Shown piece after piece: positions 2,347 to 45,835 of a stretch of DNA of 45,835 nt; within the stretch, counting starts at the first letter, position 1, and every line of letters starts with the position of its first letter. The stretch lies in contig JAURPG010000003.1 of NCBI GenBank assembly GCA_030835405.1, positions 1-45,835 on the forward strand. The letters run 5' to 3'. The position numbers and the translations under genes were made by a program. The DNA comes from Gammaproteobacteria bacterium. GTDB lineage: Bacteria > Pseudomonadota > Gammaproteobacteria > Eutrophobiales > Eutrophobiaceae. A model generated the notes under the pieces. That model did not search any database, was not told the origin of the DNA, and saw only the letters and a list, made by a program, of their open reading frames with translations.

Positions 2347-2377
2347 AAGGTCTCCCTACTCTGTCTCTCGTATTTAT

Positions 2378-6110: not shown

Positions 6111-6310
6111 TAACTTAAGCCCCCGGAGCGGTATAGAATGTATTTGAATTACCGGAATTATAGCTGAATAATCGATGTACATTAAATATGGTTAACCGGA
6201 ATGAGAATTATCCTACCACACCCCAAAAATACTATTTATTAATTAATTTCAATAGGTTAGAGTTCAAACCCAACCTAAAACCACGTATTGGTCCTATCTC
6301 GCCAAATCGA

Positions 6311-16919: not shown

Positions 16920-18425
16920 TTACTGACCCGGCGGCGGTGGGGCATTGGGGTCCATGACATCCCGGCTTGTTGTCTTTGCACCTAGTTGTTCGAGCAATTT
17001 CGCCGTACTTTCATGATAACCGTACAATCCACGGTATCGAAGCACAGGACTGATACCGGACGCCATACTCCATGGAGTTTCACCATAATTGTCCGTTATA
17101 TTAATCTCGGCGCCTTTCTCCGCAAGGTACTTAACAATTAAATCATTACCGGTAAAAGCAGCCATATGCATGGCAGTCTGACCTTCCTCATTCTTTGCAT
17201 CAATATCAATTCCCATTTCAATCACTGTTTTCACTGCATGGAATGACTTTTCTATATCTTTCTCATTGGCCTGGTTCCCACCCTTAAACGCGCATGCGCC
17301 GGTACAGGCGGCCCTTGCAGCAGCCATTAACGAATTGATGCCGCCTTTTGCGGCAATTTCCTGATCGGCTTCATAGGATTTTAACAGCCCCATCATTTTT
17401 GTATCTGCGGAGATAGAGGCGAGTAAAAATGGCGTGGCACCGACCATGTCAAATGGGCTCCCATCCGGCCCTAGACGTTTACTCTTTTTGATTTGTAAAT
17501 TAGGATCTGCACCCGCTTCCAGCAGTGCATCGGCAAGCTTATACAAATTATCTGGGAGTTGCCGATAAACCGGGTCATAACGCACACCATTCAGGGCTGC
17601 CATGCCATTTGCCATTGAATAATGGAGAGCGGAGATACCATTCTCATCAGTTGCATCAGGATCTGCCCCCATACTTAAAAGATATAATCCAAGATCTTCA
17701 TGTCCCCCGGCAGCTGTAATCACCAGAGCAGTACCCTGTTCAGGGGTAGCTTCATTAGGGTCTGCGCCTGCATCAATAATCGCCTTTGCAGAGGCCACGT
17801 CACCTGAACGCGCAGCAAATAAAAGTGGCGTAAATCCTGAACTGGATTTGGCACTGATATCGGCACCATTTGTCACCAGTAACTGACTGACTTCACCGTG
17901 GCCCTCTGCTGCAGCCCACATTAAAGCTGTTTGATTTTTCTTTTTATCTGAAACATTGGGATTGGCGCCCTTTGCAAGTAATGCGGCGACTGCCTCTGTT
18001 GCCCCTGTTTTTGAACAGTTCATCAATACAGACTCACCACTCCACAGCATAGCATTGGGATTGGCGCCTGCGACCAGTAGTTTCTTAACCAGCTCATTAT
18101 TTCGATTGGTACAGGCAAGATATAATGGTGTCACACCGTAATCATTTGCAGCATTAACATTTGCCTCTGCAAAGAGTAACTGTTGTGAAATTTCGATGTT
18201 ATTACGATGTACAGCCCAGTGTAATGCCGTAGTACCATCGGCCTCAGAAGCATTTACATTGGCTGACTCAGTGATTAACCTGGCAACCCTACCAGCATCC
18301 CCGCGTTTTACGGCATCAAGTAGCGGAAGTTCTCCTACTGAATACGCCGAAGCAGAATAAAGGCATAAAAACAGAAAAATATTTAGCCATTTGAATTGAT
18401 GCTTGCACATGAAAAAATTAATCAC
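16920..18425 (-). CDS. Exported ankyrin-repeat protein, cassette copy B
   Basis: 501 residues. The reading begins at 18425; a second ATG five codons in (18410) is also possible. A signal peptide of about 30 residues is followed by ankyrin repeats (DGTTALHWAVHRNN, NQTALMWAAAEGHG, GFTPLLFAARSGDV, GQTAMHMAAFTGND). Between repeats are non-ankyrin loops shared with copy C: NGVRYDPVYR, the KSKRLGPDGSPFDMVGATP stretch and AACTGACAFKGGNQ with two cysteines. The tail is proline-rich (APPPPGQ). It lies 12 bases after the DUF1552 stop and is last in cassette B. It probably binds the exported partners of the cassette in the periplasm. It lacks the CxxC insertion of copy A. Confidence 0.88.
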   Translation of the reverse strand: MINFFMCKHQFKWLNIFLFLCLYSASAYSVGELPLLDAVKRGDAGRVARLITESANVNASEADGTTALHWAVHRNNIEISQQLLFAEANVNAANDYGVTPLYLACTNRNNELVKKLLVAGANPNAMLWSGESVLMNCSKTGATEAVAALLAKGANPNVSDKKKNQTALMWAAAEGHGEVSQLLVTNGADISAKSSSGFTPLLFAARSGDVASAKAIIDAGADPNEATPEQGTALVITAAGGHEDLGLYLLSMGADPDATDENGISALHYSMANGMAALNGVRYDPVYRQLPDNLYKLADALLEAGADPNLQIKKSKRLGPDGSPFDMVGATPFLLASISADTKMMGLLKSYEADQEIAAKGGINSLMAAARAACTGACAFKGGNQANEKDIEKSFHAVKTVIEMGIDIDAKNEEGQTAMHMAAFTGNDLIVKYLAEKGAEINITDNYGETPWSMASGISPVLRYRGLYGYHESTAKLLEQLGAKTTSRDVMDPNAPPPPGQ

Positions 18426-18437
18426 AGTATTACACCT

Positions 18438-19781
18438 TTATGAGACATTTAATAAATTGACCTTACCTGTGCTATCACCGAACTTCCCTTCCTCAACACC
18501 CAGTTTATCCATAATTGTCAAATAGAGGTTAGAAATAGGTGTTTCTGCCGGATATCTGATGTGCTTGCCGCCTTTCAGTTGCCCTGAACCACCACCAATC
18601 AGAGCAATCGGCAGATCTTGCAACAAATGTTCGTTTCCATCACTTATGGCACTTCCGTACATGACTATCATGTTATCGAGAAGATTTCCTTCAATATCCT
18701 GGGTAGCACGTAATTTCTCCAGATAGTAGGTAAAAAGTTGTGCATGATACAGGTCAATCCTGGCAATTTTTTCAAGAAATACCGGATCATTCCTGTGATG
18801 TGATAACGAATGATGCACATCGGGTATACCAATTTCCTCATATGTCCGGTTACTCTGCTCCGGACCAGTCATAAAGGTAATCATGCGCGTCATGTCCGTC
18901 TGGAATGCCAGGACCTGCAGATCAAACATCAGTTTGAGGTGATCAGCAAATTCAGAAGGAATCCCGGCAGGCCTTTCAAATGACGGGATTTCCCTTGAAG
19001 ACTGTTGCTCAGCTAACTGAATACGTCTCTCTACATCCCGCATGCCTTCCAGGTATTCACTCAATCTTGACTTGTCCTCTACCCCAACCTTTTTCATCAT
19101 TCGATTGGTGGCATCGGTAATGGAATCGAGAATACTCTGTTCCTTTTGAATGCGGGCAAGCCGGAGCGCGGGATCAGTACTATTACTGTCGCCAAATAAC
19201 CGTTCAAACACAGCACGTGGTCTGTATTCAATCGGTAATGGTGTGGTCGGTGATCGCCAACTCAAGGTCATTCTGTAAGCACAGCTCCAACCTTTTTCAC
19301 AGCTTCCTACCACATCAGTATTGTGTAATCCGAGTTCCAGGGATGCCAGCTGGGTATATTGCCCCAGTTCCCTGGCAATAATCTGGTCTATGGATGTACC
19401 AACATGCCCTTCCCGTAATGGATGGACACCGGTCAGGAAAACACCGCCCGCACGCTCGTGCGGTGCAGATTCACCTTCACCGGGCAGCGCATCACCAGCA
19501 CTATTGTTCATGCCACTGAGTACCAGCATCTGGTCACGATATGGTGCCAATGGTTCCATGGTCTGGGGCAGCACAAAATCTTTCCCAGTTTCTGAGGGTA
19601 ACCAGTGCTTCATGTTCACGCCGTTTGGTGTATAAACGATAGAAAATCGTTTTGGCAACGTTGCCTTATCGCCCGCTGCAGCAAGTGCGGGGGACATGGC
19701 ATCAAGCATAGGTAATGCTACACAGGCACCTGCACCGCGCAGGAATGTACGCCGAGGTATGGAACGTTTAAATATCATCAT
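18438..19781 (-). CDS. Tat-exported DUF1552 family protein, cassette copy B
   Basis: 447 residues from the ATG at 19781. A longer reading from 19823 would put 14 extra residues before the leader. The shorter start gives the same MMIFKRSIPRRTFLRG opening as copy C and the same 14-base overlap with the preceding gene as in copies A and C. The twin-arginine leader is followed by the shared blocks: HERAGGVFLTGVHP, SCEKGWSC, YRPRAVFERLFGD, GPEQSNRTY and PDVHHSLSHH. It is part of the DUF1592-DUF1552-ankyrin operon. The histidine cluster suggests metal binding, but no activity is established. Confidence 0.87.
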   Translation of the reverse strand: MMIFKRSIPRRTFLRGAGACVALPMLDAMSPALAAAGDKATLPKRFSIVYTPNGVNMKHWLPSETGKDFVLPQTMEPLAPYRDQMLVLSGMNNSAGDALPGEGESAPHERAGGVFLTGVHPLREGHVGTSIDQIIARELGQYTQLASLELGLHNTDVVGSCEKGWSCAYRMTLSWRSPTTPLPIEYRPRAVFERLFGDSNSTDPALRLARIQKEQSILDSITDATNRMMKKVGVEDKSRLSEYLEGMRDVERRIQLAEQQSSREIPSFERPAGIPSEFADHLKLMFDLQVLAFQTDMTRMITFMTGPEQSNRTYEEIGIPDVHHSLSHHRNDPVFLEKIARIDLYHAQLFTYYLEKLRATQDIEGNLLDNMIVMYGSAISDGNEHLLQDLPIALIGGGSGQLKGGKHIRYPAETPISNLYLTIMDKLGVEEGKFGDSTGKVNLLNVS

Positions 19782-22176
19782 GGCCAGGGGCCCTCCTCTT
19801 CTGAAATGGTGTGCTATCAACAATCGCCAGGATCATTGAAGAAAGTTTGTGATCATCATCTGCAGATTTTCTCATGATGTCGCGCATCACAGGAGCATCA
19901 CGGTAATCAACGCCTCTACCCAATGCATAAGTCAATAATTTTTCAATTGAAGTCAGGATAAAATCATCCTTTCTTTTTTCAATCAGGACTTCTCTCAATT
20001 CTGCCATCCCCTTAAATGGAGTACCGTCAGGTAAAGTCCCGGTAGCATCAATGGAAGAATCAGATGCCGCATCCTCCGTTCGCCATTTGCCAATTGCATC
20101 ATAATTTTCTAGTGCAAACCCGAGCGGGTCCATCACTTTATGACAACTTGCACATACTGGATTGGCCCGATGCTGCTCCATCTGCTGGCGCATATTAAGG
20201 ACCTTCCCCTGATCATTGGTATCTTTTAATGCAGGAATATTGGCCGGTGGTGGTGGTGGTGGTGCACCAAGGATATTTTCCAGTATCCATTTTCCACGAA
20301 TTGTAGGTGCTGTCCTGTTCGGGTATGAGGTTAACGTTAATATGCTACCTTGCCCAAGTAGACCACCCCGGGTTGCATCAGGCAAGCTGACTTTCCTGAA
20401 ATGGCTGCCATAGACATTGGGAATACCGTAATGCCTCGCCAGTCTTTCATTTACAAAGCTATAATCTGCATCAAGCAACTCCAGCATGGATCGGTCATTT
20501 CTAAATATATAATTAAAAAAGTATTCCGTTTCACTTTGAAACGCCTGCCTGAGATTGTCTTCAAAATAGGGAAAAAGATCGGTGTTTGGTGCCGCTGCAT
20601 TTAAATTACCAAGCTGAAGCCATTGTGAAGCAAATTTCTTAATAATGGCTTCCGATTTAGGATCGGATAACATGCGCTTAATCTGCTGTTCAAGTATGAC
20701 AGGATCCGACAGTCTTGCAGATTCAGCCAATGACAATAACTCATCATCCGGGATAGAACGCCATAGAAAAAATGATAATTCGCTGGCAAGTTCCAGGTCA
20801 GAGATATTATATATTTCACCTGGCTTAATGTTGTCAGGACGTTCGACAATAACAAATAAAAATTCAGGCCCCGCAAGCATACGTTCTATAGCTATCCCGA
20901 TTCCTTCATCAAAACTGACAGATTTCCCCTGATGATAAAATACCATCAAGTCACTGACTTCCTGTTCGGAAGGGGGACGACGATATGCCCTGTGTGCCAG
21001 GCTGGTTAAGATTTTCCTGGCACAATCTTCGTCATTATTATTTTGTGGTTGGCAAATAAGAATTTTTTCTCTGCTGGCAGTATCACCAATACCCCTGGCG
21101 TTATAGGGGCCACCAATGGCGACGGTATGGACTGCTGGGACACCACCCTTGTACTGGGCATAATCATAAAGTGTATGTCGAGGGTATTCTGGCTCTTCAG
21201 GAACCGTTGATTCCTTGAGCAAGGTAACTGTTAGCTTGTGCATGCCAGCTTTGGAAGTAAAGCGGGCCTGTAATGCCTCATCGGCCGTTCTCTCATAATG
21301 CTCCTGCTCGACATCACCGGACGTTCCGGATGAGAATATACCCGCGGAACGGCCATATGTTTCACCACCGATTGTAATCAGTTTAATTCTTTCACCATTG
21401 AGGCGAATATCAAACTGGTAGGGTTCCGTCAGTCCTCTTATGTATTCCCTGGAATTACGTTGCAATTTAATCTGGACAACGTACTCACCATCCATGGGGA
21501 AATGATGGTTTACCGATGTCCCGCCCATGGACCCAAATGGCATCTCTTCCCCCATGCGATCATCCTGCATCAGGTAACCAGAAACGGAATAAATATCAAA
21601 GGCTGGTGGCATTTCAGGTTCACCCAGGGCGAGCTTCCTCACTTTTCTGGCTGCTGATATATATTGTTCAGTCAGTAATGGCGAGAGAGTCAATACTTCA
21701 CCAATATTATCAAACCCATACATAGTGTCATCGGAGGGCAAAATGGTATCGTCGTTGATCTCTACCGCAAGAAGATCGCGAACGGAATTAATGTATTCAG
21801 TCTTGTTTAACCGACGGATAGATGGGCCAGCTGGCTTGGGGTCAGTCATGGCCAGGGTATCCAGGGATGTCTCTATATGACTGGCGATAGCCTGGTAGGA
21901 GGACTCATCCGGTCGTGGCATACCCGATGGTGGCATGGACCTGGATTTTAATTTACGAAGGACTTTTTCCCAGATTTCTGCATCTTCTCCAACCTTTGTG
22001 GCATCCACATCCTGGAGCGACAGACCTGCAGTACGCAAAGTATCATTATGGCACCCCATACAATATTGACTGACGATGGCCTGATGTTCAACACCCTCTG
22101 AGGCTTGCTGGGCACTCACATTGAGATAAAAATTTATGCCCAGAGCGATTAGGCAAATCCTGGAAAATACGGTCAT
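19768..22176 (-). CDS. DUF1592/DUF1588/DUF1585 dihaem planctomycete-type cytochrome, cassette copy B
   Basis: 802 residues, the same length as copy A. The signal peptide ends near NVSAQ. An N-terminal haem site CMGCH comes with MPPSGMPRPD. DUF1587 follows (RRLNKTEYINSVRDL), then a central beta-rich part, DUF1595/DUF1592 (GIGIAIERMLAGPEFLF), DUF1588 with RGGLLGQGSILTLTSYPNRT and a PPPPPP stretch, a second haem site CASCHKVMDP, and DUF1585 at the C-terminus. A GGGGGTAG site lies just before the ATG. It is first in cassette B and is preceded by a 177-base gap after cassette C, so B may have its own promoter. It is probably a periplasmic redox protein of unknown substrate. Confidence 0.88.
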   Translation of the reverse strand: MTVFSRICLIALGINFYLNVSAQQASEGVEHQAIVSQYCMGCHNDTLRTAGLSLQDVDATKVGEDAEIWEKVLRKLKSRSMPPSGMPRPDESSYQAIASHIETSLDTLAMTDPKPAGPSIRRLNKTEYINSVRDLLAVEINDDTILPSDDTMYGFDNIGEVLTLSPLLTEQYISAARKVRKLALGEPEMPPAFDIYSVSGYLMQDDRMGEEMPFGSMGGTSVNHHFPMDGEYVVQIKLQRNSREYIRGLTEPYQFDIRLNGERIKLITIGGETYGRSAGIFSSGTSGDVEQEHYERTADEALQARFTSKAGMHKLTVTLLKESTVPEEPEYPRHTLYDYAQYKGGVPAVHTVAIGGPYNARGIGDTASREKILICQPQNNNDEDCARKILTSLAHRAYRRPPSEQEVSDLMVFYHQGKSVSFDEGIGIAIERMLAGPEFLFVIVERPDNIKPGEIYNISDLELASELSFFLWRSIPDDELLSLAESARLSDPVILEQQIKRMLSDPKSEAIIKKFASQWLQLGNLNAAAPNTDLFPYFEDNLRQAFQSETEYFFNYIFRNDRSMLELLDADYSFVNERLARHYGIPNVYGSHFRKVSLPDATRGGLLGQGSILTLTSYPNRTAPTIRGKWILENILGAPPPPPPANIPALKDTNDQGKVLNMRQQMEQHRANPVCASCHKVMDPLGFALENYDAIGKWRTEDAASDSSIDATGTLPDGTPFKGMAELREVLIEKRKDDFILTSIEKLLTYALGRGVDYRDAPVMRDIMRKSADDDHKLSSMILAIVDSTPFQKRRAPGHDDI

Positions 22177-22353: not shown

Positions 22354-23835
22354 TTATTGACCCGGTGGCGGGGGAGAACGATCATCCATCTGCTCACGGG
22401 TAACCACTTTTGCCCCTAACTTTAATAGCAATGCTGCGGTACTTTCATGATTGCCATACAGACCCTGGTAGCGGATCACAGGACTGATTCCCGATGCCAT
22501 ACTCCATGGTGTTTCACCGTAATTATCAGATACGTTTACCTCTGCTCCCTGGTCATACAGATACTGAACAATTTCGTCGGCACCAATGAACCCCGCCATG
22601 TGCATAGCGGTTTGTCCCTTTTCGGTCCTGGCATTAACATCAACACCCATTTCTACCGCCGTTTTAACTGCCTCCAGGGCAAGCCGACTTCTCTCACTAT
22701 CAGACTGGTTACCACCTTGAAAAGTACAGGACCCGGTGCAGGCGGCCTGGGCAGCGGCAATTAACGGGGTTATCCCGCCCTTGGCTACCAGGCTGGGATC
22801 CGCTTCATATTCGGCCAACAAATTCATTAATTCAACATCTGAAGAAAGTGCTGCGAGCATTAATGGTGTCGCATAGGTCATTTCAAAGGCACTGCCGTCT
22901 GGGCCAAGCCTGTGACTTTTTTGTATCTGGGCATTGGGATCGGCACCGGCTTCAAGCAGGTTTTTAGTCAGGCTGCGCATATTTTCCGGTCGAACCCGAT
23001 AGACTGAGTCATAACGGACACCGTTCACGGTAGACATCCCATTGCGTATAGAGTTATGCAATGCCGTCACACCATATTGATCACCTGAATCGGGATTGGC
23101 ACCTTGTTGCAATAAATATATAGATAGGGCTTCATGACCACTGGCACTGGCAATCACCAGCGTATTTCCCTGTTCTGGTGTACTTTCATTTGGATCGGCA
23201 CCGGCTTCTATGAGGTACTTTGCTGTTTGTACATCTCCTGAGCGTGCTGCAAATAGCAGTGGGGTAAATCCATTATTCGATACAGCCTTAACCTCTGCCC
23301 CATTATCCAACAATGTCTTGACCACATCAGCATGCCCACCCGCGGCAGCCCACATGAGCACAGATTGACCTTTCTCCATTTCTGTTGCATTGACATCTGC
23401 TCCAGCCGAAATCATTGCGATAACAGCATCTACCGCACCTCGTTTAGCGCAGTTCATTAACGACGTTTCACCAGACCACATATCAATATTAGGATCGGCG
23501 TTTGCCTTCAACAATAATTCCACCATTGCCGAGCTTTTATTGGTACAGGCCAGATACAATGGCGTGACACCATAGTCATTTGTTGCATCGGGATTAGCCT
23601 TATTTCTAACCAGGTAATCTGCAACTTTCAGGTTATCCCAGTGTGCCGCCCAGTGTAGTGCAGAGGTACCATCATTATGGGTTGTGTTTATATCTACCAC
23701 ATCATCGTTAAGCAACGCAGTAATCTGATCCATATCATTTTGTTTTGCAGCTTCAACCAAAGGCGGCAGTGATGACGCGAGACTCCCTTTCGTGAACAGA
23801 ACAGTAGCTAGTAACAGACAGTATTTAGTTTTCAT
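22354..23835 (-). CDS. Exported ankyrin-repeat protein, cassette copy C
   Basis: 493 residues with a signal peptide ending near GSLAS, then ankyrin repeats across nearly the full length (DGTSALHWAAHWDN, QSVLMWAAAGGHAD, GFTPLLFAARSGDV, GQTAMHMAGFIGAD). It shares with copy B the loops NGVRYDSVYRVRP, KSHRLGPDGSAFEM and AACTGSCTFQGGNQ and a proline-rich tail (SPPPPGQ). It begins only three bases after the DUF1552 stop. B and C look closer to each other than either is to A, in line with a more recent tandem duplication. The likely role is a periplasmic protein-binding partner for the cassette enzymes. Confidence 0.88.
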   Translation of the reverse strand: MKTKYCLLLATVLFTKGSLASSLPPLVEAAKQNDMDQITALLNDDVVDINTTHNDGTSALHWAAHWDNLKVADYLVRNKANPDATNDYGVTPLYLACTNKSSAMVELLLKANADPNIDMWSGETSLMNCAKRGAVDAVIAMISAGADVNATEMEKGQSVLMWAAAGGHADVVKTLLDNGAEVKAVSNNGFTPLLFAARSGDVQTAKYLIEAGADPNESTPEQGNTLVIASASGHEALSIYLLQQGANPDSGDQYGVTALHNSIRNGMSTVNGVRYDSVYRVRPENMRSLTKNLLEAGADPNAQIQKSHRLGPDGSAFEMTYATPLMLAALSSDVELMNLLAEYEADPSLVAKGGITPLIAAAQAACTGSCTFQGGNQSDSERSRLALEAVKTAVEMGVDVNARTEKGQTAMHMAGFIGADEIVQYLYDQGAEVNVSDNYGETPWSMASGISPVIRYQGLYGNHESTAALLLKLGAKVVTREQMDDRSPPPPGQ

Positions 23836-23838
23836 ATA

Positions 23839-25179
23839 CTAAGCCGTCTCAATATCCAGGCGGCCAGTGCTGTCGCCAAAAGAATCCAGGTGAACGCCAA
23901 GCTTGTCCAGCAGGGTAAGGTAAAGATTTGCTACCGGTGTTTTTTCGGGGTACCGGACATGAATACCACCTTTTAACTGACCCGACCCACCACCGATCAC
24001 AACCAGTGGCAGATTTTGCATGAGGTGGTCATTACCATCGCTGATACCACTGCCATACAGAACAATAATATTATCCAGCAGTGACCCATCCATATCCGGG
24101 GTTGCAGCCAGACGGTCCAGGTAATAACCCATTAATGCCACATGGTAGCTATCGATTTTCTTTAGCTTACCCAGTTTTTCTGCGCTACCCTGATGATGGG
24201 ACAGGGAATGATGCACATCGGGGATTCCAATTTCCTTGTAAGTACGGTTACTTTGTTCCGGCCCCATCATAAAGGTAATAATACGGGTCATGTCTGTCTG
24301 ATAGGCCAGTACCTGTAAATCAAACATTAATTTCAGATGATCAGCAAAGTTTGCCGGGACACCTGAAGGACGCTCAACTGTCGGAATTTCGCGATCTGAT
24401 TGCTGCTCGGCCATCTGGATCCGTCGTTCAACATCACGCATACCCTCAAGATATTCAGAGATTCTGACACGGTCTTGTGGACCTACCTTTTTCATCATCC
24501 GAGAGGCAGCATCTGTTACTGCATCCAACAGGCTCTTGTCTTTCTCTAACCTTTCCATCCGCACTTTGGGGTCGGTGCTGTTATTGTCTCCAAACAATCT
24601 TTCAAATACAGCCCTGGGGCGATATTCAATGGGTAAAGGTGTGGTTGGGTTGCGCCAGGACAAGGTGTTCATAAAGGCACAACTCCAGCCTTTTTCACAG
24701 TGACCAGTCACGTCCGTTGAATGTAAGCCAAGCTCCAATGAAGCCACCTGCGTATGTTGTCCCAGCTCTTTGGCGACTATCTGGTCAACTGATATACCTG
24801 TCTCACCATAACGTAGGGGATGCACGCCTGTTAGAAAGACGCCCCCTGCACGTTCATGGGGTGCGGTCTCTCCCTCTCCAGGCAAGGCATCACCTTCATT
24901 ATTGTCCAGACCTGTCAGGACATGCATTTTATCCTTATATTTCACAATTGGTTCCAAAGACGGGCTCAATTGAAAATTTCTGCCCGTGGCTTCAGGTGTC
25001 CATTGGGACATATTGACGCCATTGGGGGTATATATGATTGAGAACCGTTTTACTGATTCGTGTCCGTCCTTTGCTGCAGCCATGGCAGGCACCATAGCAT
25101 CAAGAAACGGTAATGCAACAGTTGCCCCGGTCCCTTTCAGAAACGTCCTACGATCAATGGCTTTTTTAAATATCATCAT
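23839..25179 (-). CDS. Tat-exported DUF1552 family protein, cassette copy C
   Basis: 446 residues opening MMIFKKAIDRRTFLKGTGA, a twin-arginine leader. The shared family blocks are all present: HERAGGVFLTGVHP, HCEKGWSC, YRPRAVFERLFGDNNS, LKLMFDLQVLAYQTDMTR, GPEQSNRTY and PDVHHSLSHH. The ATG lies 14 bases inside the end of the upstream DUF1592 gene, as in the other two copies. Export as a folded protein and a metal site at the histidine cluster are inferences. The catalytic role, if any, is unknown. Confidence 0.88.
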   Translation of the reverse strand: MMIFKKAIDRRTFLKGTGATVALPFLDAMVPAMAAAKDGHESVKRFSIIYTPNGVNMSQWTPEATGRNFQLSPSLEPIVKYKDKMHVLTGLDNNEGDALPGEGETAPHERAGGVFLTGVHPLRYGETGISVDQIVAKELGQHTQVASLELGLHSTDVTGHCEKGWSCAFMNTLSWRNPTTPLPIEYRPRAVFERLFGDNNSTDPKVRMERLEKDKSLLDAVTDAASRMMKKVGPQDRVRISEYLEGMRDVERRIQMAEQQSDREIPTVERPSGVPANFADHLKLMFDLQVLAYQTDMTRIITFMMGPEQSNRTYKEIGIPDVHHSLSHHQGSAEKLGKLKKIDSYHVALMGYYLDRLAATPDMDGSLLDNIIVLYGSGISDGNDHLMQNLPLVVIGGGSGQLKGGIHVRYPEKTPVANLYLTLLDKLGVHLDSFGDSTGRLDIETA

Positions 25180-27562
25180 GGCTTACGGCCCTCCTCGTCT
25201 GGAAAGGTATACTTTCAACGATTGCTGTAATTAAAGAAGAAATCTTGTGCTGGTCATCTTTGGTCTTTCGCATAATCTCACGCATGGTGGCTGCATCACG
25301 GTAATTAACTTCTCTCCCCAATCCATAGGTCAGAATTTTTTCTACGAAGGTCAATATAAAATCTTCGCTACGTTTTTGCAGGATGACCTCTTTCAGGCCA
25401 GCTGGCCCTGAAAAAGGTGTGCTATCAGGTAGTTCACCAGAGGGGTCAATGACTGAACTTGATGCGGCATCAACTGTACGCCACTTCCCTATACCATCAT
25501 AGTTTTCCAGGGCGAAGCCTATGGGGTCCATGACCTTGTGACAACTGGCACATACCGGATTGGCACGGTGCTGCTCCATTCTCGCACGCATGGACAATAC
25601 CTTGCCCTGATCATTCTTGTCCCTTAAGCCCGGGACATTTGGTGGAGGTGGAGGTGGAGGTGAACCCAACAGATTTTCCAATACCCATTTGCCTCGAATC
25701 ACCGGTGATGTTCGGTTTGCATAGGAAGTGATGGTAAGAATACTACCCTGCCCTAAAAGGCCTCCCCGTGCCCTGTCAGACAAAGAGACCTTCCTGAAAT
25801 GGCTACCATGAATATCTGGGATTCCGTAAAAGTTGGCCAGCCGTTCATTGACAAAGGTATAAGGTGCATCCAGTAATTCCAGTAACGGGCGGTCTTGCTT
25901 GATAACATGATTAACGAATAACTCTGTCTCTTTTTTAAATGCTGCCCGCAAATTATCATCGAAATAGGGAAATAGCTCTGTATCGGGTGCAACGGCATTT
26001 AACCGACCAAGATTTAACCACTGCAAGGCAAAATTATTCAGCAATGCATCTGCCCGAGGGTCATTTAACATCCGCTGTACCTGCTGGTTCAAGATCCTTG
26101 AATTATGGATCTCTCCAGATTCGGCTAATGTCAGCAGGTCATCATCAGGAAAACTGCTCCAGATAAATAGTGCTAATTTGGTGACCAGTTCATGGGCAGA
26201 GATTTTGAATGTATCTCCCTCTGCGAGGTTGCTTGGCTGTTCCTCAAGGATAAAAAGAAATTCAGGGCCAGCAAGTATCCTTTCAACTGCAAGACCAATA
26301 CCTTCATCAAAGCTCCCCTCTGCCTGACCACGTTTAAAAAATGCCATTAACTCCTGCATCTCGCCAGCTTGTGGCTGACGCCGGAAGGCACGGGTTGCGC
26401 GTGTTCTTAAAATGGATTCCGCACACGCAATATCATTGATACCCGACGGCTTGCAGGTATAGATCATTTTGCGACTGACTGTCTCAACCATCCCGCTTGG
26501 ATTAAAAGGCCCGCCTACAGACACGGACCGAATACCTGGCAGCCCCCCCTTATACTGGGAAAAATCGTAATTTGTATGCTTTGGATCAACCGGGGTCTCG
26601 GCTATGGCATTGTCTTTAAGAAAAGTGGCAACCACCTGGTGATAACCGGCGTCACTATAAAACCGAACATACAAGGCATCGTCCGCAGTCCGCTCATAAT
26701 GTTCCTGGGCAATATCACCCTGCGAGGCAGTGGAAAAAATTCCAGATGACCTGCCATGTTTTTCTCCTCCGATGCTAATCAGATCAAGCCGTTTACCATC
26801 CAGACGGATATCAACCTTGTGTGGGGCATCCTGCAGGCCGCGAATATAATCCCGGGAATTGCGCTGCAGTCTGACCTGGATTTCATATTCACCATTGGCA
26901 GGGAAATAATGCTGTGCCGCTATGCCGCCGCGGGAACCGAAAGGCAGATCTTCACCCAGTCGTTCTTCCTGGCGGGTATTATTCGATAATGTATATATTT
27001 CATAGCCAGGCTGTATATTGGCATCTCCCAATGTCTGCCTTCTAACCTTTCTCGCTGCGGAGATATATTGCTCCGTTAAAACAGGAGATAAGGTCAAGAC
27101 ATTGCCAATATTGTTAAAACCAAACATGGAATCATCCGGGGGCAACAAGGATTCTTCATCTATCTGGACCCCCAACAGATCGCGAATGGCATTGGCGTAT
27201 TCGGTCCGGTTAATTCTGCGCATAGCAGCCCGTCCCGGGTGAGGATTGGCGTTGGCATATTCATCCAGGCCATTCTCAAGATATTGCGAAAACCCTTCAT
27301 AGGTAGCCGCATCCGGCCTGGGCATACCTGATGGAGGCATACTTTGTACCTTTAACTTTCGCAGTACCTTCTCCCATTTTTCGGCACCGCCGCCCAAATC
27401 ATGGGTATTGATATCCTGCAACGTTAATCCTGCGGTTTTCAGCTGGTCATTATGGCAGGTGACACAAAACTGATTGACCACTGACTGATACTTCTCAGCC
27501 GGTGATTGTGCTGAGCACGCCATGCTAAACAAAAATAATAATATAAAATAATGTATACGCAT
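25166..27562 (-). CDS. DUF1592/DUF1588/DUF1585 dihaem planctomycete-type cytochrome, cassette copy C
   Basis: 798 residues with the same domain order as copies A and B: haem site CVTCH with MPPSGMPRPD, DUF1587 (RRINRTEYANAIRDLLG), a central beta-rich region, DUF1595/DUF1592 (GIGLAVERILAGPEFLF), DUF1588 (RGGLLGQGSILTITSYANRT, then PPPPPPP), a second haem site CASCHKVMDP and DUF1585. The N-terminus LFLFSMACSAQS has a cysteine at the signal cleavage region, so this copy could be a lipoprotein, although the lipobox is not canonical. AGGGGGA precedes the ATG. It is the first gene of cassette C and is divergent from a Tat-exported flavoprotein gene. Confidence 0.88.
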   Translation of the reverse strand: MRIHYFILLFLFSMACSAQSPAEKYQSVVNQFCVTCHNDQLKTAGLTLQDINTHDLGGGAEKWEKVLRKLKVQSMPPSGMPRPDAATYEGFSQYLENGLDEYANANPHPGRAAMRRINRTEYANAIRDLLGVQIDEESLLPPDDSMFGFNNIGNVLTLSPVLTEQYISAARKVRRQTLGDANIQPGYEIYTLSNNTRQEERLGEDLPFGSRGGIAAQHYFPANGEYEIQVRLQRNSRDYIRGLQDAPHKVDIRLDGKRLDLISIGGEKHGRSSGIFSTASQGDIAQEHYERTADDALYVRFYSDAGYHQVVATFLKDNAIAETPVDPKHTNYDFSQYKGGLPGIRSVSVGGPFNPSGMVETVSRKMIYTCKPSGINDIACAESILRTRATRAFRRQPQAGEMQELMAFFKRGQAEGSFDEGIGLAVERILAGPEFLFILEEQPSNLAEGDTFKISAHELVTKLALFIWSSFPDDDLLTLAESGEIHNSRILNQQVQRMLNDPRADALLNNFALQWLNLGRLNAVAPDTELFPYFDDNLRAAFKKETELFVNHVIKQDRPLLELLDAPYTFVNERLANFYGIPDIHGSHFRKVSLSDRARGGLLGQGSILTITSYANRTSPVIRGKWVLENLLGSPPPPPPPNVPGLRDKNDQGKVLSMRARMEQHRANPVCASCHKVMDPIGFALENYDGIGKWRTVDAASSSVIDPSGELPDSTPFSGPAGLKEVILQKRSEDFILTFVEKILTYGLGREVNYRDAATMREIMRKTKDDQHKISSLITAIVESIPFQTRRAVSHDDI

Positions 27563-38931: not shown

Positions 38932-41070
38932 TTAAAAACCTGACTCTCGTATCAGTACGGATGCGACGGTTTCATAAAAATACCGTAATAAACTTTCTGC
39001 ATGGCCCTCAATATACATAGTACCAACCACAACCTTATCAATTGGACCTGGATCCTCAATAGGAATAAGTTTTACCCTGTATACAGAGGTTTCAGGGATT
39101 AATCTATTTGATGAATCCTGTCTGACTGCGATACTCCCTCCATATTGTGAGGCCAAATACAGATTGTCTAAATCCTGAATATTCGTATCTTCAATTTCGA
39201 CAATATGGGCTTGAATTTCATCTAACTCAGGTTCATTGGGCAAGAAAACCGCATCCTGATTTATTTCAATCCTTCTTAATTGTTCTGCAGGGATAATCGC
39301 GGTAAATTCTATATTTCGGTTATCAATCACTGAAGCAAGCCTGAAATCCTCATTTACCCATCTGCCCACATGAAGATTCCTGGGAAGATCAACAATCTTA
39401 CCGCTGATGGGTGGTCTTATGGTTAAATCATCCAATAATGCCTGTAGTCCAGCCAACCTGGACTGTAACTCCTGGATATTTTCGTTAAGCACACCACCGG
39501 ACGCTAGATCTTCAGGGTTAGCAACACGCCTGTTTAACCTGAATCTAACCAGATTTAATTCACTTATGGTTTTTTCAATCTCATTTTCCAGAGAGGGCGA
39601 TTCAAGTACCAAAAGTACATCATTACGCGTGACCTCTTCTCCAATTTCAAAATTGATTGATTTAATCCGACCCGGGTACGGTATATAAATGGAAGTTTCA
39701 TTAGAAGTTTTCAATATTGCTGGAACTGAAACCGTAGTATTAAATGGAATAATTACACCTAATAAACACGCAAGTAATATGCCTGCAATGATGTAATATC
39801 GTTTAGATTCACGGATCTTCTCTTTCATACCCCACCAAACCTGCATCTCTTTTCTTATCGGGTTCAATATGAACCATATAACCTCTATTATAAATAACAA
39901 TAATCCAAGAAGCTTGAAAAAGAAATAATAAACGAGTAATGCAATACCTAAAAATAGAAAAAATCGATAAACCCAGACACACCATGCATAGATGGTTAAT
40001 TTCCATGCCAGCACCGGATCCATTTTTTCGGGCATTGGTAAATTTAAATTAAACAGTAAATTTCTCAGTCTCCATTTCCCGAATGCAAATGACCTACTCT
40101 GTAAATTTTCAACTTCTAAAAAATCAGAAAAAATATAATAGCCATCAAAGCGCATAAAAATGTTCGTATTAACCAGTACGGACATAGTCCAACTCGTGGT
40201 GGCAAAAATAAACGCTATACTTTTTAATATCCCCTCAGGTAGAAAACTCCATAAAAAAGTCGACAGAAAAGCAATATATAATTCTGTCATCATGCCGGCT
40301 GACCCAATTAATATTCGTTGCCGTTTTGATACCAATTTCCAGCTATCTGATGTATCTGTGTATAAAACTGGAAACATAACGAGAATCACGATTCCCATGG
40401 TAGGGATGCGACATCCATAACTCGCCGCCAGATAGGCATGTCCAAATTCATGCAATATTTTTATGACAATTAATGCTAAAACATACATTGCCATGCCTTG
40501 CAGAGAAAAAAAGTATAAAAAAGTACTGACAAATTCATCCCATTGCCTGGCAACGAGAAATAAGCCAACAACTCCCCATGCTGCAACTAATATCCTGAAC
40601 ATTTTTCCAAATATAAACTTCACATATGGCAATGTAGTATTAATAAAACGATCAGGACGAACTAAAGGTATCCGGATAAAAAGAAAACTTGTTATCAATT
40701 GAAAAAAGCTACGTTTTGTGGCTTTTAATTGCTGAAGATAATCATCTGATGATCCACTTGCGGACTTTTCTGTAAGACTGTTTTTATATAAAAATTCTGT
40801 TAACTCTTTTAGATTATCCAGCGTTATATTACAAACAGTTTCATTCCTGACTCGATTAAGAATCGCTTTCGAATTACCACTATGCCATCGGGATAAAAGC
40901 TGAAAAGCAGACCACCCAATACGGAAATATTTATTTCTAACAGGATCAAATATATTCCATGTAGGTGAACCATCCAGCGCAGCCGGGCCACGCAATAACT
41001 TTAAATCTTCTCTTAGTGCTGGAAGAGCAAAATCCTGCCCGCTCTCAGTGGAGTTGATAGCTAGACTCAT
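38932..41070 (-). CDS. M50 metalloprotease membrane protein fused to a HlyD-type adaptor, with PqqD-like N-terminus
   Basis: 712 residues in three parts. Residues 15-105 (LREDLKLLRGPAALDG, FRIGWSAFQLLSRW, LDNLKELTEFLYKN) look like a PqqD-like winged-helix domain. Residues 155-430 form an M50 site-2-protease-type membrane domain with HEFGH at 207-211 and the third ligand region RFDGYYIFSD (308-310 FDG), so the zinc site seems intact. From about 440 there is a periplasmic biotin/lipoyl-like adaptor (IPYPGRIKSINFEIGEEV, then a coiled-coil hairpin and IRPPISGKIVDLP). Bacillus YydH, a putative peptide zinc metalloprotease, is a distant relative of the membrane part. It overlaps the GAF-HlyD gene by four bases (ATGA). 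It probably forms the inner-membrane core of the export locus. Confidence 0.82.
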   Translation of the reverse strand: MSLAINSTESGQDFALPALREDLKLLRGPAALDGSPTWNIFDPVRNKYFRIGWSAFQLLSRWHSGNSKAILNRVRNETVCNITLDNLKELTEFLYKNSLTEKSASGSSDDYLQQLKATKRSFFQLITSFLFIRIPLVRPDRFINTTLPYVKFIFGKMFRILVAAWGVVGLFLVARQWDEFVSTFLYFFSLQGMAMYVLALIVIKILHEFGHAYLAASYGCRIPTMGIVILVMFPVLYTDTSDSWKLVSKRQRILIGSAGMMTELYIAFLSTFLWSFLPEGILKSIAFIFATTSWTMSVLVNTNIFMRFDGYYIFSDFLEVENLQSRSFAFGKWRLRNLLFNLNLPMPEKMDPVLAWKLTIYAWCVWVYRFFLFLGIALLVYYFFFKLLGLLLFIIEVIWFILNPIRKEMQVWWGMKEKIRESKRYYIIAGILLACLLGVIIPFNTTVSVPAILKTSNETSIYIPYPGRIKSINFEIGEEVTRNDVLLVLESPSLENEIEKTISELNLVRFRLNRRVANPEDLASGGVLNENIQELQSRLAGLQALLDDLTIRPPISGKIVDLPRNLHVGRWVNEDFRLASVIDNRNIEFTAIIPAEQLRRIEINQDAVFLPNEPELDEIQAHIVEIEDTNIQDLDNLYLASQYGGSIAVRQDSSNRLIPETSVYRVKLIPIEDPGPIDKVVVGTMYIEGHAESLLRYFYETVASVLIRESGF

Positions 41071-42449
41071 AGACCGATGTATTGTCTAAGTGTCGCAATA
41101 GGCCTTCTGAAGAGGTAAAAGAAGAGCGTAATTCTCTCACCATAAATTTTTGCAGTACCCTGTAATCCAATTCTTGGCATATCTTCAGAATTAGTAAAGT
41201 CTGCTGTGATACGATATGCCAATATATTTTCCGGCGTCAATTCTGCCTCATAACTGGCATGGGTCAATGTTGCCTCTAATGAATGCAATGGATCATAATC
41301 CAGAAATATTGTGATCTCAGCACCTGGAAACAATACTATGGCATCGTTAACGGGCAGGTCAATTCTTAGTTCTACTCGACCTGGATCGGCTATTTGCATT
41401 ATTCGTTCACCAACACGTACTGGTGTGCCAGCCCAGTCTGACTCATCAGAATAGATTAACAATCCTGAGACTGGTGCCTTCATTTCAACCTGTTGCAGTA
41501 ACTCATTTGCATAGTCCCTTTGCGTCCGCCTGAGTTCTACCTGCGACTTTATTAATGACACGCGTGAATTACTTGTACTATCCTGAAATGCCCCCTGTGA
41601 AACCTGGCGAAACTCAGCCATAGATACAGCCAGGGCTTTATCCGCTATTTCAAATTCATTTCTTAGTTCTGTATCCACATACCTGAATAACGTCATTCCT
41701 GATTGTACTAGGGTATTAGGAGGAACCAATACTTCGTCAATAAGACCATCCATGGGTGAGCTGATAATTAAAGGGTCTTTTGAAACGACCTCTACTGGCG
41801 CTAACGTGCTTATTCTTATAGGTATTACAAAAAAGCTGAAAATGATGAAGAAAACTGAAAACAGGGCTACCCGTTCATGGTAGGTTTTCTTTTCCAGCTT
41901 TTCGAAATCTTCAACGGCAAATGCGGCGTGTGCATACGTTTCACATAATCTTCTAATCAATACAAACTCATTTTCTACCCAGGGCTTTTCCCGTGCAAGC
42001 CATAGAATGCCTATATGTTTTCCATTAGGTAAATTTAACGGACACAATAATACATAAGGTAGCGAAAAGTCTTTCCATTGATCTCTATAATTTTCCGGGC
42101 AATTGACTGAATCTATTTGAATTAAATCCCGTTTGTTTGACTTTCTATAAACCTGTGAAACAAGTTTTTCTGACCAGACCGTTGCAGGTGCATCTTTATC
42201 AACTATGGCAACACTTGATGCTACCTGGAGTTTATGGGAATCATTAGATAACGCCCCGGTTTTGAATAATAATGCCTGTCGATATATAACAAGTTTCCTG
42301 GTTTCATTAACGACAAGAAATTCCAATGATTTTAATGATCCTGCAGCACGGGCCATCGATTCCAGCTGCATTAACATAGAGACAGCTGCCATCATCGGGT
42401 CTTTATTATTTTCTGTAGCCATAATTTTATTCAAATATTGCTGTGCCAC
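41067..42449 (-). CDS. GAF-domain/HlyD-type membrane fusion hybrid
   Basis: 460 residues from the GTG at 42449, with GGGATGA just upstream; an ATG at 42422 directly after the preceding stop is also possible. The N-terminal half (about 35-185) has a GAF-like cytoplasmic sensor layout (VLLCPLNLPNGKHIGILWLA). One membrane segment follows (about 194-212). Next is a periplasmic HlyD-type adaptor: the lipoyl-like half IISSPMDGLIDEVLVPPNTLV, a coiled-coil stretch, then VEMKAPVSGLLIYSDESDW and a beta barrel. A cytoplasmic GAF joined to an adaptor is unusual and could couple signal sensing to export. It overlaps the preceding adaptor gene by 23 bases and the M50 gene by four bases, so the three are translated together. 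Confidence 0.8.
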   Translation of the reverse strand: MAQQYLNKIMATENNKDPMMAAVSMLMQLESMARAAGSLKSLEFLVVNETRKLVIYRQALLFKTGALSNDSHKLQVASSVAIVDKDAPATVWSEKLVSQVYRKSNKRDLIQIDSVNCPENYRDQWKDFSLPYVLLCPLNLPNGKHIGILWLAREKPWVENEFVLIRRLCETYAHAAFAVEDFEKLEKKTYHERVALFSVFFIIFSFFVIPIRISTLAPVEVVSKDPLIISSPMDGLIDEVLVPPNTLVQSGMTLFRYVDTELRNEFEIADKALAVSMAEFRQVSQGAFQDSTSNSRVSLIKSQVELRRTQRDYANELLQQVEMKAPVSGLLIYSDESDWAGTPVRVGERIMQIADPGRVELRIDLPVNDAIVLFPGAEITIFLDYDPLHSLEATLTHASYEAELTPENILAYRITADFTNSEDMPRIGLQGTAKIYGERITLFFYLFRRPIATLRQYIGL

Positions 42450-43182
42450 TCATCCCAGACAAAACATCATCAGGGGTAGCTAAAAATTCACCTATTAACC
42501 TGACTGTCTGACTAACAGGATCAACGATTGCACCAACCTGGGTTATTTTGGCTTCGTATTCCCTTCCGGTCTCATCAACTGAAAAAATAAACTCTTCTCT
42601 AGCATTCATATCCACCAACCAAGTTGAAGGAATGATGAGTTCAATCTCAAGCAACTGGTCATTTAGAATTGAAATTAATTCCTGATCTGCCAATACAGTT
42701 TCGAATTCATTGATAAATACATCAGTGACTCTTCCATTGTATGGCGCCTCAATTGAGCAACCATTAGCAAATATTCTTCTTATGGTTGCCTCTGCTCTGG
42801 CCATTTCCATTTCAGCAAGTGAGGCTTCTACATCAATATCACTTGTCGCATTTAACTCGAATAACTTCTTGTAATTTTCATATTTCTTCGATTCTATAGT
42901 AAATTTAGCATTTGCTGATGCCAGTTCGGCCATATATCGTTCACAATCAAACCTGACTAATAAATCACCTTCATTAAACCGTTCGCCAATACCATACTGA
43001 ATTTCTACGATCTTCCCGGAAATTTCACTGGACAAAACAGCTCTTTTTTTTGGTTTAATCAGGCCACGTATATTCTCAATATTACTAATACTCGAATTAT
43101 ATGAGAGATCTTGTGAGCTAACGCCTGACATAAAACAGATCCAAATAATTAACAAACATTTACTAGTAATTTTATTAGTCAT
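42427..43182 (-). CDS. Short periplasmic adaptor (HlyD/RND-type membrane fusion protein)
   Basis: 251 residues, shorter than usual adaptors (about 350-400). The signal peptide ends at GVSSQ. The lipoyl-like halves are AVLSSEISGKIVEIQYGIGE and SIEAPYNGRVTDVFINEFET, separated by a short helical hairpin. A beta barrel follows (IELIIPSTWLVDM, YEAKITQVGAIVDPVSQTVRL). The usual membrane-proximal domain after the barrel is missing. Such adaptors link an inner-membrane transporter to a TolC channel. The gene lies between the TolC-like gene (135 bases upstream) and the GAF-HlyD gene, so this locus encodes three adaptor-type proteins. The short form may act as a helper that docks on the other two. Confidence 0.85.
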   Translation of the reverse strand: MTNKITSKCLLIIWICFMSGVSSQDLSYNSSISNIENIRGLIKPKKRAVLSSEISGKIVEIQYGIGERFNEGDLLVRFDCERYMAELASANAKFTIESKKYENYKKLFELNATSDIDVEASLAEMEMARAEATIRRIFANGCSIEAPYNGRVTDVFINEFETVLADQELISILNDQLLEIELIIPSTWLVDMNAREEFIFSVDETGREYEAKITQVGAIVDPVSQTVRLIGEFLATPDDVLSGMSGTAIFE

Positions 43183-43317
43183 ATCGCATCTTCCAGTTTC
43201 TAATCAGATTAGTTAATTTTTCTCATTCTGATTTAAGATCATCATTAATAATATTCTGGTTTTATTAATCTTTATTCTTGTACATATACAATAGTTGAAC
43301 CTTGGCAACCATGGTAT

Positions 43318-44835
43318 TTATTCAATTTTAAGTTGAAATATTTCATCGTAAATTGTTAGTGCGTTAAACTTCTTCTCTAATAAATTTTCCAATGTTTCCA
43401 GTGGCATCAAATAGTCATAACCAGGGAGCAAATCAACACCAAGTGCTGAATAAATACCTGCATAAGAATTTTGCAGATCAGAATAAGCAATGTCATAACG
43501 CATCTCAGCCACCAGCATATTCATCTCTTCTCGAATTAATGTTTGTTGACTAATGGTCTCTACAATAGCTGCAGTGGAAATTTGCTCTAGTATTTTCTTT
43601 TGTGTTTCATAGTAATCCATAGCAGTTTGATATTGTCTTCTGGCAAATTCATACTGGGCAATACTGACATGCACTTGGGACAGTACAGCCATACTCACAG
43701 ACAGTCTTTGTGCATCTAGAACGGCTTCTCTGGCATCTATTTGCCTGTTAACAGAAGGCAACCTGAGCAGGTTAATTAAGTTAGAACTAATCCTTGCACC
43801 ATAATTCAACCAATCATTATTAAACAGAAAACTGTTATCGTTATATTCCTGCCCAAAATTAAGATTCAATCCCGGCAACAATTCTAAAATAGCAGCCTTA
43901 GATTCATTACGATTAATTCTTTTCTGATAACTGATTTCCCGTACTTCAGGTCTGTTTTCCAATGCAATTGTCTCTAACATCTGGAGTGAAATTTCCAGTG
44001 GCTTAATGTCTCTATCTCTTTCCGGGATTGACAGATCGTATTTTTCCCCGGGAGATAAATTCATTAAGGCGGCAAGTTGTATCTTTGCAAAAGACAGGCT
44101 TTGCATCAATTCTTCTATTTCCCGTTTTATTCCAATCAGCTCGCGCTGATAAGTCAAAGCTGTTAAAGGCCTGTCCAGTCGTTCTGCTTCAATTTGCCTG
44201 GAATCAGATAATGCAGAATTCACCTTTACCAACAAACCTTGCATTTTTTCAATCAACCTATCATTGCTCACTGCTCTCCAGTAAGCTGTACGTGTATTAC
44301 GTACCAGACGATTGATTACTTTACGCTTTTCCTCCTCGGCCAATAACACCCTGTCCGCTGCTTGTTTAGCCCTGAAATAAGACAGGCCAAAATCCAGTAC
44401 ATTCCAGGTTAAAGAGAGATTAGCGGAATGGATATCCCGATCCGAGGACGTTGATGTTGGAAGGGATTGCCTCCCGGTAACTAAATTGCGACTTCCTGCT
44501 CCGCTAAAATTAGATCTCCCTGCATACCCTAGGTTAGTAACCATCTGCGGAAGTAGCTCATAATGCGATATTTCAAGATCTTTTTGCGCAAGAACCTTGT
44601 TGGCTAACTCAAGATGAAAATCAAGATTGTATTTCAGGGCTCTGGCAATGGCTTCGTATAAGGAGACTGGACCAGAAACGGGATCCTTGTTAGCTATAAT
44701 ATTTTGCCTGTCTGATTGCGCCTGTGCCTCAAATTCGTCCTGGGGGATAGGCGAAGGAATTAAAGCGCAGCCTGATATAAAAATAATCAGGCAGGACAAT
44801 AAATGACATTGCCACTTTTTATTGCAATTACGCAT
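43318..44835 (-). CDS. TolC-family outer membrane channel lipoprotein
   Basis: 505 residues with a lipoprotein leader ending ISGC (about residue 23). Two long coiled-coil repeats are typical of TolC/OprM channels: SLYEAIARALKYNLDFHLEL and ALENRPEVREISYQKRINR mark the starts of the halves, with DFGLSYFRAKQAADRVLLAE in between. It provides the outer-membrane exit for the adaptor proteins encoded downstream on the same strand. The gene lies 87 bases after the stop of the large exoprotein, consistent with a cargo-plus-exporter order. No ABC transporter or RND pump gene accompanies it in the window. Confidence 0.88.
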   Translation of the reverse strand: MRNCNKKWQCHLLSCLIIFISGCALIPSPIPQDEFEAQAQSDRQNIIANKDPVSGPVSLYEAIARALKYNLDFHLELANKVLAQKDLEISHYELLPQMVTNLGYAGRSNFSGAGSRNLVTGRQSLPTSTSSDRDIHSANLSLTWNVLDFGLSYFRAKQAADRVLLAEEEKRKVINRLVRNTRTAYWRAVSNDRLIEKMQGLLVKVNSALSDSRQIEAERLDRPLTALTYQRELIGIKREIEELMQSLSFAKIQLAALMNLSPGEKYDLSIPERDRDIKPLEISLQMLETIALENRPEVREISYQKRINRNESKAAILELLPGLNLNFGQEYNDNSFLFNNDWLNYGARISSNLINLLRLPSVNRQIDAREAVLDAQRLSVSMAVLSQVHVSIAQYEFARRQYQTAMDYYETQKKILEQISTAAIVETISQQTLIREEMNMLVAEMRYDIAYSDLQNSYAGIYSALGVDLLPGYDYLMPLETLENLLEKKFNALTIYDEIFQLKIE

Positions 44836-44922
44836 ATCAGCAAATATTATATGATTTTTTACAATAAATCATATAGTTATTGGATAATTTAGACTTGATA
44901 AATGAGGTTATTAGACTTCTGG

Positions 44923-45835
44923 TTAGTCTGAATTATTGCTATAAAAACCAGTAACAGGATCATCGTAACCCTGCAATTGATCTGAAAATGACGATCCGGT
45001 GATATTTTCTGTATTAATATCATTTATTGCGGTAATTTCACCACTGCTAAGATCAACCTCAATAAATCTAACAATTGTGGAACCGTCATTGAGCACCACT
45101 TCAATCCGCAATTGAAGTTTTTCCATACCTTCAGGGGGATATCCTGTAATTAATGCACCAGAATCATCAATTCTTAACCATTCTGGTAAAGCATTGCCAT
45201 CAAGCATTGTTACCCTGTAACTATCTACCTCAATATTTATATTTGAAAAAACCTGATAATCGATATCTAAATAAATTGCATCCTCTCGTAAAACTGTTCT
45301 TAACACCAACTTATCAACATCTTCTATTTCTGATTGCTCAAATTGTAGCGGATCTAATCCTGATTCCTGTCCTTCTGAAAATCTACTGAATTCAGTAACA
45401 TTAAAACTAGCTGAAGATGTCATTACATTTGATCCTTCAATACTATCTCTAGTTATATCTGTTATAGAGCCGGGCCTTGTTATATTGAAGCTTTCAACCG
45501 CATTAAGAACGGCATCCTCTGAATCAACATCTCCAATAATATTTAAGGCATTTGCTGCTTCAATCGCATCAATCATCGCATTATCAGCATTGGTTACATT
45601 TATTTCGATGCCTGGCTCAAAAATATTTACAATGAAATTATTATCATCGGCTCTATCAATTTCTTCTGATGAACCATCAGATGCTTCTGAACCAGCCGTC
45701 GAGACGTTTTCCGTCACCGCAAAGGTCTGATTCGCCGCCGTGATGTCCAGGTCGCCAACATTAATCGTGATGGTCGCCGTGGCATCCACGTCGCCGCCGT
45801 CGTCCACTTCCACCGTCAAGGTGTACTGCGTGGCA
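44923..45835 (-). CDS. C-terminal end of a large cadherin/Ig-like exoprotein (cut by window edge)
   Basis: About 304 residues of the C-terminal end are visible; the start lies beyond the window. The first part, YTLTVEVDDGGDVDATATI, is the end of a cadherin-like repeat of the type found in tandem in giant adhesins. A low-complexity acidic Ser/Asn-rich region follows, then a putative Ig module (ALPEWLRIDDSGALITGYPP). It ends without a GlyGly-CTERM, LPxTG or hydrophobic anchor. Base composition changes sharply near 45715: the repeat part is GC-rich, the tail AT-rich. Being directly upstream of TolC and adaptor genes, it is probably the secreted substrate. The exact size and repeat number are unknown. 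Confidence 0.75.
   Translation of the reverse strand, partial: ATQYTLTVEVDDGGDVDATATITINVGDLDITAANQTFAVTENVSTAGSEASDGSSEEIDRADDNNFIVNIFEPGIEINVTNADNAMIDAIEAANALNIIGDVDSEDAVLNAVESFNITRPGSITDITRDSIEGSNVMTSSASFNVTEFSRFSEGQESGLDPLQFEQSEIEDVDKLVLRTVLREDAIYLDIDYQVFSNINIEVDSYRVTMLDGNALPEWLRIDDSGALITGYPPEGMEKLQLRIEVVLNDGSTIVRFIEVDLSSGEITAINDINTENITGSSFSDQLQGYDDPVTGFYSNNSD

Follow-up and report, generated by a model that had tools for sequence, protein, structure and literature searches.

Modules in which an M50/HlyD protein stands together with a GAF/HlyD protein, a further HlyD protein and a secondary SecA have been described before (Kamneva et al., 2015; PMC4452313). In the literature that we searched, which included few subscription papers and no preprints, this is the only direct prior work, and neither PqqD nor LEPR is mentioned in its main text. 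Among proteases of the same class, MpaP, a fusion of an RRE with a site-2 protease (S2P), has been proposed to remove the leaders of daptides (PMC10036551), and the M50 protein EpeP is thought both to cleave and to export EpeX (PMC10885120).

The window analyzed here, 45,835 nucleotides long, is the whole of contig C20 of a 2.8-Mb draft genome, and its last position, 45835, lies inside the gene for a giant repeat protein. The initial annotation had described the tail of this giant followed on one strand by TolC-like, short adaptor, GAF-HlyD and M50-HlyD genes, the last three overlapping; all of these open reading frames are present on the minus strand (Table 1), in the order TolC, MFP, GAF-MFP and M50-MFP after the giant, and the adaptor-type genes overlap by 4 nt and 23 nt. 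The M50-MFP is, as had been proposed, the sole multi-spanning inner-membrane candidate of the module. The GAF label is good only by family: the domain falls below Pfam detection in the window protein and was found in 10 of 29 orthologues, by which the assignment holds on sequence grounds. The suggestion that this domain senses a signal is unsupported in our analysis.

Table 1. Features of the export locus at the end of the window.
Feature	Coordinates	Strand	Evidence or remark
RRE-M50-MFP fusion, 712 aa	38932..41070	-	Pfam Peptidase_M50 and HlyD_3
RRE/PqqD-like domain of the M50-MFP, residues ~12-102	40765..41037	-	predicted fold
GAF-MFP, 460 aa: GAF-type N-terminal domain, one TM (190-222), periplasmic MFP domain	41067..42449	-	HlyD_3
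Short MFP, 251 aa, N-terminal hydrophobic signal/anchor (segment 5-23)	42427..43182	-	HlyD_3; RND_mfp over cut-off
TolC/OEP outer-membrane factor, 505 aa, lipobox-like signal (ISGC)	43318..44835	-	PF02321, 2.5e-30
Giant exoprotein, C-terminal end: He_PIG domain and short tail	44923..45834	-	open at window edge

A second contig, C48, shares an 88-bp identical, in-frame stretch with the tail of the giant, within a cadherin-type repeat, and probably encodes its N-terminal part (L187:11103-14797), with LEPRIMLDAAAVATG; because repeats can be common to several genes, the joining of the two contigs is probable rather than proven. The genes upstream of the giant on C48 encode an amidohydrolase, an EAL regulator, a histidine kinase and an amino-acid kinase, with no transporter there. 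Elsewhere in the window, three copies of a three-gene set lie on the minus strand (748-6182, 16920-22176 and 22354-27562), encoding a DUF1592/1588/1587/1585/1595 cytochrome-type protein, an HXXSHH (DUF1552) protein and an ankyrin-repeat protein, the first two of which bear domains named for Planctomycetes.

The M50-MFP combines an N-terminal domain (~12-102), a site-2-protease core and a C-terminal HlyD domain (~440-712) in one polypeptide. Its protease site, HEFGH at 207-211 and FDG at 308-310 (D309 of FDGYY), is intact, in agreement with the initial annotation: H207, E208, H211 and D309, the zinc ligands among them, are invariant in 46 aligned relatives, and HExxH was found in all 93 complete proteins examined. 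The topology predicted by AlphaFold2 for the full-length protein (pLDDT 87) comprises the N-terminal domain, a membrane core and the MFP domain, the latter aligning with MFPs at Z 14.5 to 12. Since a full-length VIA search was dominated by the MFP domain and uninformative on the N-terminal domain, this domain was folded alone (AlphaFold2, pLDDT 88). RRE proteins occupied the first six rows of a Foldseek search with the isolated domain; the E-values are weak (0.07-0.48), and the match therefore rests on fold and topology. VIA alignment gave Z 10.2 to a lasso-peptide B1 protein (82 residues, 2.9 Å), 9.9 to TbiB1 and 9.1 to PqqD, the three top matches having rmsd values of 2.6-3.0 over 81-85 residues, and the rows that follow are mostly RiPP or microcin enzymes with RRE domains. 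The predicted model has the beta-beta-beta-alpha-alpha-alpha winged-helix fold of RRE/PqqD domains, and Pfam PqqD is found above cut-off in a sister-type homologue (L049); a sequence-profile search of the PDB with the domain returned chance matches only. At the start of the M50-MFP we thus predict an RRE/PqqD-fold domain, the kind of domain with which RiPP enzymes read leader peptides, and the recognition of this predicted domain is new in this analysis.

Far from being a one-off, the locus recurs widely. At least 579 relatives matched in public genomes, of which the best 80 were retrieved, and the relatives belong to Nitrospirota, alpha- and gammaproteobacteria including SAR11, Campylobacterota and Thermodesulfobacteriota; a search of viral contigs found none. 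Carriers of the module include Nitrospira, SAR11 (Pelagibacteraceae), Azospirillum, rhizobia, Pseudomonas cichorii and others, and an M50-MFP or a remnant of one is present in 18 of 53 genomes of the order. We defined the window type by a profile score above 800 bits, independent of SecA content. The gene order is conserved over 95 such loci in four phyla, a few of those counted being the same records from two collections. Among the 64 window-type loci with full flanks, the GAF-MFP is present in 64, the MFP in 60 and TolC in 53, leaving 11 without a nearby TolC and four without a nearby MFP. In the neighborhoods of the relatives no gene is conserved beyond the module and the giant, and the proposed adjacency to giant repeat proteins is supported. 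Because the same order recurs across four phyla, the arrangement is not due to chance, and a generic unrelated neighbor is ruled out.

Site-2 proteases are often regulatory and GAF domains often sensory. On that ground the M50 protein could be read as an anti-sigma-type site-2 protease that controls expression of the giant adhesin, the MFP domains being structural, but the neighborhoods of the loci contain no conserved transcription factor or anti-sigma partner, and three MFPs, a TolC and an RRE fold point instead to transport of a leader-bearing substrate; we regard such regulatory proteolysis as very improbable.

The window genome holds two further paralogous loci. The locus on contig C27 runs giant, TolC, MFP, GAF-MFP and M50-MFP, without SecA; that on C103 runs giant, GAF-MFP, M50-MFP, secondary SecA (660 aa) and MFP, which is the order of the Methylobacterium operon of Kamneva, Poudel and Ward (2015; PMC4452313). 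This kind of locus is therefore already published, and the question left is the nature of the SecA-less form, represented in this genome by two loci, the window included, next to the single SecA-linked one; the sole other SecA of the genome is a housekeeping SecA of 901 aa. A local secondary SecA occurs in none of the 95 window-type loci as against 20 of 25 sister-type loci, and a recognized TolC in none of the 20 SecA-bearing sister-type loci. In the phylogenetic tree, 92 window-type rows fall on one side of a single branch (support 99); judged by these protein sequences, the SecA-less type is a clade separate from its SecA-linked sister type. In window-type genomes that lack a sister locus, the only SecA present is the housekeeping one, as in the one-contig G275 and the 100%-complete G022, G023 and G213; no SecA match of any kind came from G038, G042 and G045, which are thus uninformative on SecA count.

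Some individual loci deserve mention. A SecA candidate of 907 aa at L122 is housekeeping-sized and adjoins the module but lies outside it, and it was not counted as a secondary SecA. L195 and L196 (G241 and G257) have the sister-type order GAF, M50, MFP, giant with an LL-AD motif, and no secondary SecA was found in a genome-wide search of either. At L193 (557-4462; G030:C69) an open reading frame of 1301 aa has the C-terminal part of a secondary SecA and an N-terminal part whose beginning resembles that of a secreted or outer-membrane protein, possibly a fusion or an assembly artefact.

The initial annotation had stressed the missing canonical ABC or RND partner, and here it was borne out: no ABC or RND transporter is present at the window locus or conserved beside the 95 window-type loci. 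Of the two findings that it had named as telling against its reading, a canonical transporter directly beside the locus and a generic neighborhood for the M50 protein, neither came up. The overall picture that it drew stood in this respect and was incomplete in others, having overlooked the RRE domain, the LEPR motif, the SecA-bearing sister locus in the same genome and the prior paper. Of the components of type I secretion, an MFP and a TolC-family outer-membrane factor are present and the ABC inner-membrane component is absent, by which a plain type I system is ruled out; likewise, plain RND efflux adaptors are ruled out by the lack of a pump. An ABC-labeled neighbor (622 aa) at the divergent locus L209 was rejected, its start looking like that of a soluble ABC-F-type ATPase and not an exporter, as judged from sequence. 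An unlinked type I ABC exporter might still act in trans, the M50-MFP serving as adaptor and processing subunit only. Full-length LssB-like ABC proteins in G022, G050 and G168 (525-579 bits, below cut-off) are in keeping with this reading, but none of ten window-type genomes passes either of two cut-offs with models for type I ABC proteins, six of them (G000, G023, G041, G044, G213 and G245) have only partial, MsbA-sized matches, and no ABC gene is conserved beside window-type loci, all of which makes an exporter in trans improbable.

The giants themselves carry a recurrent N-terminal motif. In G050 the whole giant gene (3128 aa) lies directly upstream of TolC, and giants with a visible start open with a basic tail (median length 41 aa, net charge +5), after which the window-type proteins have the motif LEPR[IL]MFD[GA]AA, then ...A-T. 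Across 41 non-redundant giants, chosen by a regular expression that already required part of the motif, L, E, R, D and one A never vary. Near window-type loci, the motif is present in 34 of 49 giant-like open reading frames with a complete start versus two of 2639 others (p 9e-64), and many of the 15 giant-like frames without it resemble antisense or broken frames. The giants of SecA-type genomes have LEPRxLLSAD, and the window genome, which has both machines, has both versions; by motif comparison, the motif version follows the machine version. The occurrence of a candidate LEPR signal on the adjacent giants, in two versions by machine type, is new here. The N-terminal 400 aa of the giant contain no hydrophobic segment, and the adjacent giants lack a Sec signal. 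SecA-type giants match NCBIfam LEPR-8K (NF012209) above cut-off and one matches Pfam Planc_extracel (PF07595) weakly; the probable N-terminus of the window giant scores 14.2 bits with LEPR-8K when translated and 17 in six-frame search, the threshold being over 17 bits.

Giants from several phyla (L116, L117, L127 and L131 among others) have similar last ~30 residues, F.PL..QL.......D.YG..L..L, possibly a C-terminal secretion signal, and Nitrospira giants instead have a hydrophobic segment close to the C-terminus. L209 is a divergent offshoot with the order MFP, GAF, TolC, an 836-aa cadherin-type protein and M50, and its cadherin-type protein starts MRKLEQRVVLDAAAVA. At L189 (G004:C53) an open reading frame of 229 aa has a LEPR-type motif, LEQRLLLSADL, and no M50-MFP was detected in that genome.

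Substrate and machine also co-occur across genomes. Of the 53 genomes of the order, 13 encode DUF4347 (PF14252), which comes after the motif in many giants; all 13 are among the 18 with an M50-MFP or remnant, versus none of the 35 others (p 1e-8). Over the 274 genomes of the class, DUF4347 is found in 31, of which 22 have an M50-MFP (p 3e-15) and nine gave no M50-MFP match, with at most four candidates scored per genome; neither p-value takes account of shared ancestry. This co-occurrence of protein domains is, likewise, newly reported here. In G040 (L051 7589-8596; G040:C87), a single open reading frame joins the LEPR/DUF4347 N-terminus of a giant to the C-terminus of an M50-MFP. The frame has the structure of a scar left by deletion of the entire operon, and machine and giant were therefore lost in one event. 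In G007 (L033 9021-9332), only the last 103 residues of a window-type M50 protein are left, in the same neighborhood and beside a transposase-like gene pair.

The reading that we favor, and consider somewhat more probable than its alternatives taken together, is that the locus encodes an RRE-site-2-protease-MFP machine for export and processing of LEPR-tagged giants, a SecA-free sister of the SecA/M50/HlyD module of Kamneva and colleagues. How this module binds, cleaves and transports its substrate, and what energizes it, we infer as follows. The giant would be made without a Sec signal, and the RRE domain of the M50-MFP would bind its basic N-terminal tail and LEPR motif at the cytoplasmic face; the site-2-protease core, given its conserved zinc ligands, may then cut or clear the leader. 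The inner membrane would be crossed at the complex, most likely with housekeeping SecA pushing through SecYEG, the weakest step of the scheme. The three MFPs (M50-linked, GAF-linked and free) and the lipoprotein TolC would form a periplasmic conduit, and the giant would finish outside the cell as an adhesin-like protein. The module encodes no energy source of its own, and housekeeping SecA is favored as the motor because the sister clade has its own SecA.

Alternatively, the giant might cross through the membrane domain of the M50 protein, driven by the proton motive force and without SecA or SecYEG, the sister type adding an ATPase. The want of a Sec signal on the giant, the absence of an ATPase from all 95 loci and the precedent of EpeP, an M50 protein thought to export (PMC10885120), speak for this route, but such a pore is putative and the retention of SecA in 20 of 25 sister loci points to a Sec-like motor; we think passage through the M50 protein rather unlikely. 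A broader proposal we can put forward only tentatively, at somewhat less than even chances: the module may represent a secretion system of its own kind, devoted to giant proteins. Its RRE would read the LEPR leader and its site-2 protease would process that leader, the polypeptide that carries both would also contribute to the periplasmic conduit, and no ATPase would be dedicated to the task; the SecA-free and SecA2-linked subtypes would each read their own motif version. If true, the combination of RiPP-type leader recognition with an intramembrane protease and a TolC conduit would bring two fields together, and the module would be a protein exporter that has neither an ABC nor a SecA motor dedicated to it. 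As each machine subtype has one motif version, the question of export is directly testable, and the wide taxonomic spread of the module implies a large ecological reach.

Compared with known systems, the window type shares with the Kamneva module (PMC4452313) homologous M50-HlyD, GAF-HlyD and HlyD proteins, which occur together here as there, sometimes an OEP, and the lack of an ABC transporter; it differs in having no local secondary SecA_DEAD, in its distinct M50 clade, in a built-in TolC and in substrates with an MFDAA and not an LLSAD motif. The nearest curated family of the M50-MFP is the daptide leader peptidase NF041824 (best NCBIfam match, E 4e-37), at 128 bits against an equivalog cut-off of 300. 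The M50 proteases MpaP, of this family, and EpeP/LiaK resemble the M50-MFP in the RRE fused N-terminally to a site-2 protease, whereas they lack a C-terminal MFP and act on short peptides. Type I secretion (HlyBD-TolC, LapBCE) shares the MFP and TolC-family conduit and giant RTX/Ig adhesin-like substrates; unlike it, the window module has no ABC transporter, three MFP-type proteins and a conserved N-terminal LEPR on its substrate. LEPR-XLL (NF012209), DUF4347 (PF14252) and Planc_extracel (PF07595) proteins, in turn, share an N-terminal LE.R motif on giants; LEPR/DUF4347 giants, present in several phyla and without an export route in the literature searched, are here linked to one machine, the M50-MFP module.
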